Assembly: GCF_018362975.1 (NCBI RefSeq)
Contig: NZ_CP074371.1
Location: 434,001 to 498,000, forward strand
Length of the DNA: 64,000 nucleotides
From: Nocardia tengchongensis
GTDB lineage: Bacteria; Actinomycetota; Actinomycetes; Mycobacteriales; Mycobacteriaceae
Direction of reading: 5' to 3'
Part shown: in pieces, positions 43,839 to 46,800 of the stretch
Layout: every line of letters begins with the position of its first letter
Numbering within the stretch: the first letter of the stretch is position 1
Made by a program: the position numbers and the translations under genes
Notes under the pieces: generated by a model
What the model was told of the DNA's origin: nothing
The model's input: the letters and a program-made list of their open reading frames with translations, nothing else
Database searches by the model: none

Positions 43839-46800
43839 TCAGCGCCCGTGCTCGGCGAGTCCCGCCAGCGCCTGCACCCAGCCCTCGACGAGCTGTTTGA
43901 CCTGGTCGAGGGTCAGCACCGCGCCGACGAAATCGAAGCGGGCCACCAGTCCGTCCTGGCTGGTGTCGACGGTGACGTCCAGGTACAGGTCGGCGGCGAC
44001 CGGTTCCGGGTAGACCTCGGCGGGCCGCAGGTCGCGGTAGCGGAAGCCGATGCGGCCCAACGGGAGCACCGCGATCTCCGCGACCGTCTCCGGGTTCAGG
44101 TACCGCAGCAGCCCGAAACCGACACCCCGCGAAGGCACCTCGCGCGAGAGGTCACGGATCTGCTCGATGATCGAACCCGCATTGGGCCCGCCCGACCGCA
44201 CCTGGGCGAGGTCGAGACCCTCGAGGCGCAGCGGGAACGGGTAGTTGGTGCTGAACGCGCCGACCGTGCGCACCCCGTCGCCGCCGGCGGGGATGCGGCC
44301 GTCGGCGATCAACCGCACCACCGAACCCAATGTGTCCCGCAGTGTTTCGGACTCCGGGTCGAGCAGGGTGGCGGCCAGCGCGGTCAGCAGCACATCGTCG
44401 ATGCTGGCGCCGTAGCGGCGGGCGACGGCATCGACGGCCGCCGCGCCGTCACCGGTGATGGCGACCGAGACCCGGCCGCGGCTGCCGGAGTCGGCTTCGC
44501 CGAGCACCATGTCCGGAGACACGCCCTCGGACACATTCGCGAGGGCCTCACGCCACCAGTCCAGTTCGTCGACGGTGACCGGGTCCACGGCCCGCTCGGC
44601 GAGCGCGCGGGCGATGCCGTGCGGGTGCGCGTCCGCGCTGGGCGGGGTCGCGTGACCGCCGGACCAGGACGCGGTGAGGTCCTCGATGACGGTGCGCCAC
44701 GACGCGTCGTCCACGACCAGGCCGTTGGCGACCACCACCAGCACGGCGGCGGGCCGGTCCTGCGGGTTACCGGCCGCGCCCGCGCCCTCGACCAGCACGA
44801 ACCGCATGTTGTAGCCGCGCTCGGGGTCCAATTCGGCCGCGGCGGCGTGGATCACGGCCTCGATCGGGTCGCCGACCGCCTCCACGTTCGGATCGATCTG
44901 CCACACCACCGCGGCGCCGCGCGGCTGCACCGGCGGAATGTCCAGCGCCACCGTGTCGCCGTCACGGCGCATGCGCGCCCACAGGCCCGGATGCCGGTCC
45001 AGCAGGCCCGCGACCGAACGCCGGACCCGGGTGCCGGAGGTGCCGGCGGCGATGTCGAGGGTGATGGCCCGGACCCAGATACCGGACGGCTCCACCTCGA
45101 GCAGGCCGATGGCTCCGGCCGGCAGCGGCGACACGTCGCCCACCGCGCTGAGCGCGGGGCCGGTGGGCCTGGTGACCGGGGTCCCGGCCGGGTTGGCCGG
45201 CTCCCCCACCGGGGCGGCGGGCGTACCGATGCTCGAATCCGGTTCGACCGCAGGCTGATCCGACGCGCTCGCGTCCTGCGTTGCGGCGGAGTCCATTTCG
45301 GCCGCCACCGGCGCATCGTCGCGCGTCGAGGCGGACTCGCTGTCCCCGCCGAGGCGGAAGGCCACGTCGGGCTCGGGTGCGGCGTCGGGCTCCGGCGCTG
45401 CCGGACTCTTGGGCGCCACCGGATCGTGCAGCTTGACCGGCGGCGCGAGGTCTTCGGGCCGGATGATCGGCAGCACCTGGGTGATGGCCCAGTCGTCGCC
45501 GCTGTCGAACGGTTCGGCACGGTCCACCGGTTCGGGGCGGGCCACCGGCTCCGAACTGTCCAGAGCCGCACTGCTGTCCAGGGACTCACGGCCGACCACC
45601 GGTTCAGCGCGGTGCGCGGCGGCGACGTCCGCCGGTTCACCTCGGTCGGCCTGCTCGATGAGTTCGGCCAGGCGCGGGCCGATGACGGCGAACGCTTCCG
45701 GGGTGCACATGAGCTGGTGGCGTACCGGCACCACGTGTTCGGCGATGCGTCCGGTGACGTAGGGCCGCCAGTCCTCGGCGCTGTGCGGTTCGCCGTCCTC
45801 GCGGCCGAATTCGGCGGCGAAGAGGTCCATGCGGGCGTCGAGCACCGAATGCCGGTAGCTCGCACCGAGTTCCACGGTGCGGACCGCGCCGCGGTACATG
45901 CGGCGCAGCCGGTCGACGGTGAGCACGGCCAGTTCGGCGGGGATGGCGGCGTGCAGCGCGTGCAGCGCCTCGTCGCTGAGGTCCTGCAGGTCGCCGGCGG
46001 GCAGTGCGTCCTCGCCGACGCCGAATTCGGCGAACTGCGCGCGCAGATCGTCACGGAAGCTGTCGAATTCGGCGCCCGGGTAGGCGTCGAGGACGGCCAC
46101 CAGGTCGACTTGCTGTCCGGCGGCCCGCAGTTCGGTGGCGATGGCGTGCGCGAGCACGCCGCCGAGGGAGTAGCCGAGCACCCGGTACGGGCCCTCGGGC
46201 TGGACCTCGCGCATGGCCTCGATGTAGCGCTGCGCGACCTCGCTCAGCGATGCGGGCCGGTAGTCGTCCTCGGTGAGGGCCGGTGACTGCAGGCCGTAGA
46301 TGGGCTGGTCGTCGGGCAGGAATCGGGACAGTCCGGCGTAGGGCCAGGCCATGCCGACCATGGGCGGCGCGCAGAACAGCGGGGTGCGGGTGCCGGTGGC
46401 CCGGATGGGCAGCAGCACGCCGAGCGCCGAGTCGGCCGCGGCGTCGTAGTCGTGTTCGTCCTCGAGCGCCGCGGTGATGCGGGCGCTGAGCCCGGCGACC
46501 GTGGGTTCGGTGAAGAACCAGGAGACCAGCACCTGGGCCCCGGTCAGTTCGCGCAGCTTGGCGACGATGCCGGTGGCCAGCAGCGAGTTGCCGCCGATGG
46601 TGAAGAAGTCGTCGTCGACGCCGACTCGTTCGAGTCCGATCGCCTCGGCGAAGGCCGTGGCCACCGTCGCCTCGAGCGGGTTGCTCGGGGCGCGGTATTC
46701 GCCTTGCCGCAGTTCGGGTTCCGGCAGGGCCTTGCGGTCCAGTTTGCCGACCGGGGTGAGCGGCAGTTCGTCGAGGACCACGATGGCGGCGGGCACCATG

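Follow-up and report, generated by a model that had tools for sequence, protein, structure and literature searches.

Organization of the locus

The window—by which we mean the whole stretch of 64,000 nucleotides analyzed here (C1:434001-498000), taken from a genome of 8.0 Mb in a single contig whose close relatives are Nocardia concava, niigatensis, aurantiaca, seriolae and terrae—carries on its minus strand the last nonribosomal peptide synthetase (NRPS) gene of a cluster (43839..57958), with a secreted-type esterase of family PF00756 directly downstream on the same strand (42558..43634). The domain order of the synthetase is A-T_E-C25-A-T-C-A-T-C-A-T-TE-linker-E*, where E* stands for an epimerization-type domain without catalytic residues at the extreme C-terminus. 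A T_E-type carrier (GVDSI; approximate limits 56060..56290, minus strand) is followed directly, with no E domain between, by the DCL-type condensation domain that we call C25 (54621..55955, minus strand), in which the HHILIDGWS motif is intact. The gene closes, on the minus strand throughout, with a final A domain spread over three frames in the window genome (46686..48192, approximate limits), a final carrier of the GGNSL type placed by the domain map (T, 46446..46685), a thioesterase (TE, 45636..46430; Pfam Thioesterase 95 bits) with intact Ser (GYSLGG), Asp (AVLDAYP) and His (VPVRHQLM) motifs, a linker (45141..45635) and E* itself (43842..45140), which is recognized from profiles, alignment and structure.

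The carrier, TE, linker and E* share a single uninterrupted frame (46685-43839, minus strand) within ORF 47615..43839 (minus strand; an open frame of 1327 residues). The initial annotation of this DNA had proposed a TE followed in the same frame by an acidic Pro/Ala linker of about 170 residues and an E-like condensation-superfamily domain of about 430 residues. This arrangement was borne out: neither a stop nor a frame change separates TE from E*, the linker has 165 residues (32 Ala, 27 Pro and 30 Asp/Glu against 10 Lys/Arg), and the terminal domain has 433 residues and an E-domain fold. Four frame changes do occur in the gene (47,130-47,743; ~53,650; ~56,130, the last inside the T_E carrier), all in the part upstream of 47,237, leaving the TE-linker-E* portion untouched. 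They may represent sequencing error or real breakage; the stretches checked hold no long homopolymer at these points, and the same gene is one intact ORF of 4774 residues in relative G001.

Two further observations were made around the gene. The NRPS genes at window positions 58061-58831 and at L070:1699-2487 end with a C domain, an A domain cut off after its first 70-110 residues, and some 190 residues more; such truncated-A gene ends recur in L154, L156-L158, L160, L161 and L163, the next gene opening with a complete A-T, and might represent a docking element. About 30 kb from the NRPS, the window also carries nocobactin-like siderophore genes (1-13,725, minus strand), comprising TE, KS, AT-KR-ACP, NRPS, Lys/Orn monooxygenase and ABC transporter functions.

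An epimerization fold without the known catalytic residues

Structure comparison, sequence and tree all place E* among E domains in fold and ancestry, the AlphaFold2 model having a mean pLDDT of 88.4. Profile scores were weak to marginal, with 28-33 bits for Pfam Condensation (cut-off 30.6) and 35.8 bits for NCBIfam TIGR01720 (cut-off 74.2). To describe the domain across species, we aligned 83 E* sequences—79 of the 80 loci ranked best among 118, the window and three more—with ten canonical E domains, six from the window genome and four from relatives. The His pair of HHxxxDG is present in all ten canonical domains and in none of the 83 E* sequences, where the second His never occurs and the first occurs once. 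In the window, N-G of ANGLVVDD aligns onto H-H and D onto the Gly, so that E* reads NGxxxDD, in line with the earlier claim that both catalytic His are gone. The Glu of EGHGRE (position 278), kept by every canonical domain (one reading ESHGR), is also lost in E* and variable.

Other positions are fixed. His 280 is replaced by Asp in 83/83 E*, and the FNYLGR motif is mostly replaced by [FL]RYRDLRPA, with R369, D370, P373 and A374 invariant over the 83 rows. The corresponding 11-residue stretch of the window E* is what we take to be the former E7 motif, FNYLG(R/Q). At the former HH positions, conservation is loose (N/S/G/T/H and G/S/A/C/E/R, respectively), which argues that no new base took the place of the His residues there. 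The charged network at the former pocket, a placement deduced from the motifs rather than from model coordinates, could equally form a new catalytic site or a ligand-binding site. Terminal condensation (CT) domains have an active HH and no TE; here the HH is absent and a TE is present. Judged by its sequence, E* represents a new form of E domain, specific to Nocardia, from which the known catalytic residues have gone.

Distribution of E*

E* was detected at E<=1e-90 in 140 of 150 Nocardia genomes, once in 133 of them and twice in seven. Inspection of nine of the ten search-negative genomes revealed two more with E*, raising the count to at least 142/150; six carried a canonical-E-like domain in the slot between T and C, with HHYAIDGVSW visible in five and the motif unseen in the sixth (L186), and in one the contig was too short. 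In at least five genomes, the slot of the syntenic locus is therefore occupied by a canonical E that is intact. In an order-wide sample of 397 genomes, scores at the level of E* (575-632 bits, best match) were reached in ten, all Nocardia; the next matches scored at most 209 bits, many of them ending at profile position 356, and those read from the window's own genome are canonical E domains. Likewise, matches at E<=1e-60 in a phylum-wide sample were confined to three of 396 genomes, again all Nocardia. No E* match of similar score was thus found outside Nocardia in either sample, with the proviso that these wide searches scored 4 to 11 candidates per genome and thereby missed two E* genomes, which makes the presence counts lower bounds and the absence elsewhere less than airtight.

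At 73 of the best 80 of 118 loci, and with E* in either position, the esterase gene is located downstream of the NRPS; the other seven comprise two upstream gene copies, three short contigs and two loci without an esterase within 10 kb. This common neighbor argues that the E* loci are orthologous. An esterase match was present in 150/150 Nocardia genomes, several of which hold more than one. On these data, E* is near-universal in Nocardia at one syntenic locus.

Two positions of E* in the assembly line

The initial annotation had considered the domain only behind TE, and we found that elsewhere in Nocardia it often occupies the normal E slot, which in some genomes holds an intact E. Domain maps were made by tblastn with the window domains, such that a T or TE that is unlisted need not be absent. 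Among the best 80 of 118 loci, 48 have E* in the slot, followed by C25-A-T-TE; a T precedes it in 47, and the contig does not reach the front of the remaining one. Another three loci stop after C25-A. The carrier before the slot E* reads GGDS(I) in the class-2 loci whose carriers were examined. The TE-linker-E* architecture of the window, which the initial annotation proposed to look for in other Corynebacteriales, was found in 20 of the same 80 loci, a share that is overstated since these loci were chosen as the most window-like of the 118; a further three loci are of other kinds. In 19 of the 20, no stop or frame change parts TE from E*; the one that departs from this is a MAG (L091). TE-linker-E* is also one frame in G011, G025 and G050. 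The distance from TE to E* ranges from 19 to 690 residues in these 20 loci.

In the window gene, E* is not flanked by a T and a DCL domain, as an active E domain would be, but stands behind TE. The carrier ahead of C25 is still T_E-like in the window lineage (GVDSI...VSRAR), with C25 adjoining it and E* at the C-terminus. In seven other post-TE genomes (G025, G050, G024, G019, G045, G053 and G047), the gene ending in E* contains no C25, and a strict bond between E* and its DCL domain was rejected on this ground. Among the upstream genes retrieved for these seven, four carried a C25, behind a canonical E in three (G050, G019, G053) and at the edge of the stretch in G024.

Several loci depart from both arrangements. 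In G025, G050 and G024, the upstream NRPS gene closes with a TE and an N-terminal piece of E* only (matches within residues 3-79; L151:2531-2731, L152:1799-1927 and L153:1360-1629, reverse complement). These are remnants of a second post-TE E*, which indicates that E* could be lost at the TE of an upstream gene. In six loci (L095, L097, L109, L112, L119 and L128), the gene ends after E*-C25, without A-T-TE, just before the esterase, and terminal condensation release is possible there. The G021 NRPS L164 (G021:C1:393500-413400) combines a canonical E in the slot with a divergent E* (39%) on a long branch behind TE. In its neighbor L181 (G021:C1:412000-431900), an E*-type C25 adjoins the T_E and the final TE is followed by no E*, so this T_E-C25 junction can do without an E* in its own protein.

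Phylogeny of E* and C25

In the E* tree, from which L147 was left out as partial and in which L080, with no TE detected, was labeled post-TE by hand, E* forms one clade (100/100) apart from four canonical E domains. On this tree, no fewer than two changes of the post-TE label are required, consistent with two relocations or with a single one that was later reversed. C25 is of the DCL type, grouping with the C domains that follow canonical E in the window genome (100/99). Within a tree of 49 C domains, C25 splits by partner. The canonical-E type comprises 11 rows (100/99), ten behind canonical E and one, L173, whose front was not fetched; the E* type comprises 31 rows (92/94, just below the starred level of that tree), of which 21 adjoin E* and ten lie at T-C25 junctions without an E domain. 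Nine of these ten junctions, including those of the window and L181, group together (94/97). The 31-row group leaves out one C25 that has E* as its partner (L135), and the C25 of L132 is labeled slot in the tree, yet stands without E. Such a grouping is what a relocation of E* from the slot to the C-terminus predicts, and the position behind TE is most likely derived. L181 is a case to the contrary, as no E* stands behind the TE of its gene.

Selective constraint

That the domain is kept after the loss of its active site, as first suspected, is reflected in its rate of change. Across six close species (the window and L071-L075), pairwise dN/dS for E* was 0.24 (range 0.17-0.30), compared with 0.46 for T, 0.58 for the linker and 0.51 for TE, the last value being inflated because some of the species have divergent TEs. 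E* was also below TE in each of five selected pairs (0.08-0.20 against 0.12-0.45), two of which come from the same six species. The divergent TEs that raise the TE values suggest that modules ahead of E* are exchanged while E* stays. Within the post-TE clade (18 rows, window included), the best-conserved blocks, 130-165 and 360-380, are the former active-site motifs; set against 50 slot rows, these 18 were not relaxed in general, and they gave no clear signal of a loss of carrier-contact residues. These patterns indicate that E* is not decaying. With the known catalytic residues lost yet the domain strongly conserved, E* reads as a non-epimerizing domain with a job, and strong selection together with its place in the epimerase slot elsewhere suggests reuse for something other than flipping amino acids.

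Possible roles of E*

The reading that we favor, at roughly even chances, is that E* is a pseudo-epimerization domain of E descent, non-epimerizing and reused for non-catalytic binding or recruitment in a Nocardia-specific NRPS. By its sequence, the domain descends from an E domain, has lost the catalytic His and Glu in every aligned copy and has an invariant Asp/Arg signature at the former active-site motifs; in many Nocardia it would have been held between a T_E carrier and its own DCL lineage, whereas in the window lineage it would have moved behind TE on a flexible acidic linker, the T_E-DCL junction closing up. Such a relocation implies that E* can work independently of placement between T and C, and its persistence both there and tethered behind TE makes a spacer job unlikely. 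E* would then most likely bind the carrier-bound peptide, a neighboring domain or a trans-acting enzyme in the manner of an X domain, the binding or recruiting role of which offers the analogy that fits best. Counting against this reading are the E* stubs of G025, G050 and G024, the G021 genes L164 and L181, and, in the C25 tree, the support of the E*-type group and the position of L135. The structural, docking or gatekeeping role suggested initially fits the data in general terms; no interaction partner was found, with P450 and esterase considered, and a re-tooled binding or catalytic pocket could serve as well. Somewhat more tentatively, E* may constitute a new, Nocardia-specific functional class of the condensation superfamily, its pocket rebuilt around Asp and Arg for a new binding or chemical step on the carrier-bound peptide, performed equally from the slot or from the post-TE tether.

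Three candidates were set aside. The esterase was rejected as a docking partner: its N-terminus looks like a secretion signal, making docking in the cytosol unlikely, and the gene is retained in genomes whose slot contains a canonical E. Recruitment of a P450 was likewise rejected, as the window genome has none within about 260 kb of the NRPS, and an X-domain-like P450 recruiter is therefore not indicated; no hydroxylase was noticed among the Pfam-scanned neighboring ORFs either. Finally, glycine at the T_E module would make an E domain superfluous, and the A-domain codes there (DALFVGGIMK / DAMLVGAIAK, from a motif-based script that left many codes incomplete) are not glycine-like.

Of the competing explanations, a stereochemical relic is doubtful. 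The E domain would have been inactivated to retain an L residue at this place in the product, leaving E* as a mere folded adaptor between T_E and DCL that module recombination carried behind TE, where it has no role. The alternation of intact E (at least five genomes) and E* in the same slot agrees with this, as do the co-divergence of the DCL domains with E*, the E* stubs behind some upstream TEs and the one T_E-C25 junction without E* in the gene; the locus also recombines, to the point that the TE of close species can be far more diverged than E*. A relic thus freed should drift, however, and post-TE E* is more constrained than T or TE and keeps its invariant signature. That signature—charged residues invariant or nearly so, at the former active-site motifs—is what would be expected if E* were catalytic through new residues, either as a non-His/Glu epimerase or in another reaction on the carrier-bound chain that uses Asp280/Arg367/Arg369/Asp370/Arg372. 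E* does precede a DCL domain in 48 of the best 80 of 118 loci, behind a T_E carrier where examined, and we take the A domain ahead not to be of the glycine type. We nevertheless regard new catalysis as unlikely, given that the old HH positions are loosely conserved whereas all ten canonical E domains keep both HH and the EGHGR Glu.

A docking domain for gene-to-gene hand-over between NRPS subunits would explain the occurrence, in G011 and two other strains, of two successive NRPS genes that both have TE-E* at their end. This explanation is very improbable, because the window NRPS is the last gene of its cluster yet ends in E*, and because E* is internal in 48 loci of the best 80 of 118. That the architecture is an artefact of a wrong frame, an assembly error or chance similarity is scarcely credible: the gene does change frame four times further upstream, which invites the suspicion, but relatives contradict it, with TE and E* in one frame here, in 19 of the 20 post-TE loci and in G011, G025 and G050.

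Implications and relation to known systems

In product prediction, an E domain is read as a D-amino acid at that position. An E look-alike without catalytic residues, present genus-wide, would thus falsify stereochemistry predictions for a highly conserved Nocardia NRPS family. The locus also offers a natural experiment, as related species differ in having an intact E in the slot, a dead E* there, or an empty slot with E* behind TE, and both what a pseudo-domain does and what follows when an NRPS domain is moved can be tested there directly; should the new-class reading be true, E* would be a naturally relocated NRPS domain.

As far as the available part of Mannle et al. 2020 (PMC7413640) describes it, the E* gene cluster is already published as GCF 6, a Nocardia NRPS family of 7 to 13 modules. 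Shared features are a large genus-wide NRPS with a variable number of modules and neighboring genes for an esterase, a metallopeptidase, an epimerase and an enoyl-CoA hydratase, to which the PF00756, M23, NAD-dependent epimerase and ECH genes at the window locus correspond; the described GCF 6 neighbors also include a nitropropane dioxygenase. The cluster is probably cluster #4 of Komaki et al. 2014 (PMC4035055) too, in view of the two TE domains and genus-wide presence reported in the portion available. The accessible parts of both papers make no mention of an E domain behind TE or of missing catalytic residues. Similarly, the accessible part of a review of NRPS exceptions covers TEs in tandem and the chondramide assembly line, where a PEP domain immediately follows the TE; an E domain behind TE was not found in it. 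Literature searches for an E behind TE or an inactive E returned partly unrelated matches and not this arrangement, which makes for a weak absence.

Compared with the canonical E domains of TycA, TycB3, GrsA and PvdL E2, E* lacks HH and the EGHGRE Glu and has [FL]RYRDLRPA for FNYLGR, and the window E* differs in its place behind TE. Another relative by description, rather than by sequence, is the Interface (I) domain of siderophore NRPSs, which Reitz and colleagues reportedly described in 2019 as a non-canonical member of the C superfamily and proposed to position a tailoring enzyme. E* is likewise a non-canonical C-superfamily domain, and differs in that its cluster has no noticed hydroxylase neighbor. 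The X domain of glycopeptide NRPSs lies between T and TE. E* departs from it in lying behind TE and in its surroundings, since P450 partner genes would be expected in the cluster and the nearest to the E* NRPS is about 260 kb off; the X-domain structure 4tx2 is also a weaker match to E* (rank 31, TM 0.65). Like E*, however, the X domain has a C/E fold without an intact HH—its motif, in the part of the source available, being HRxxxDD (PMC11546977)—and acts as a non-catalytic recruiter.
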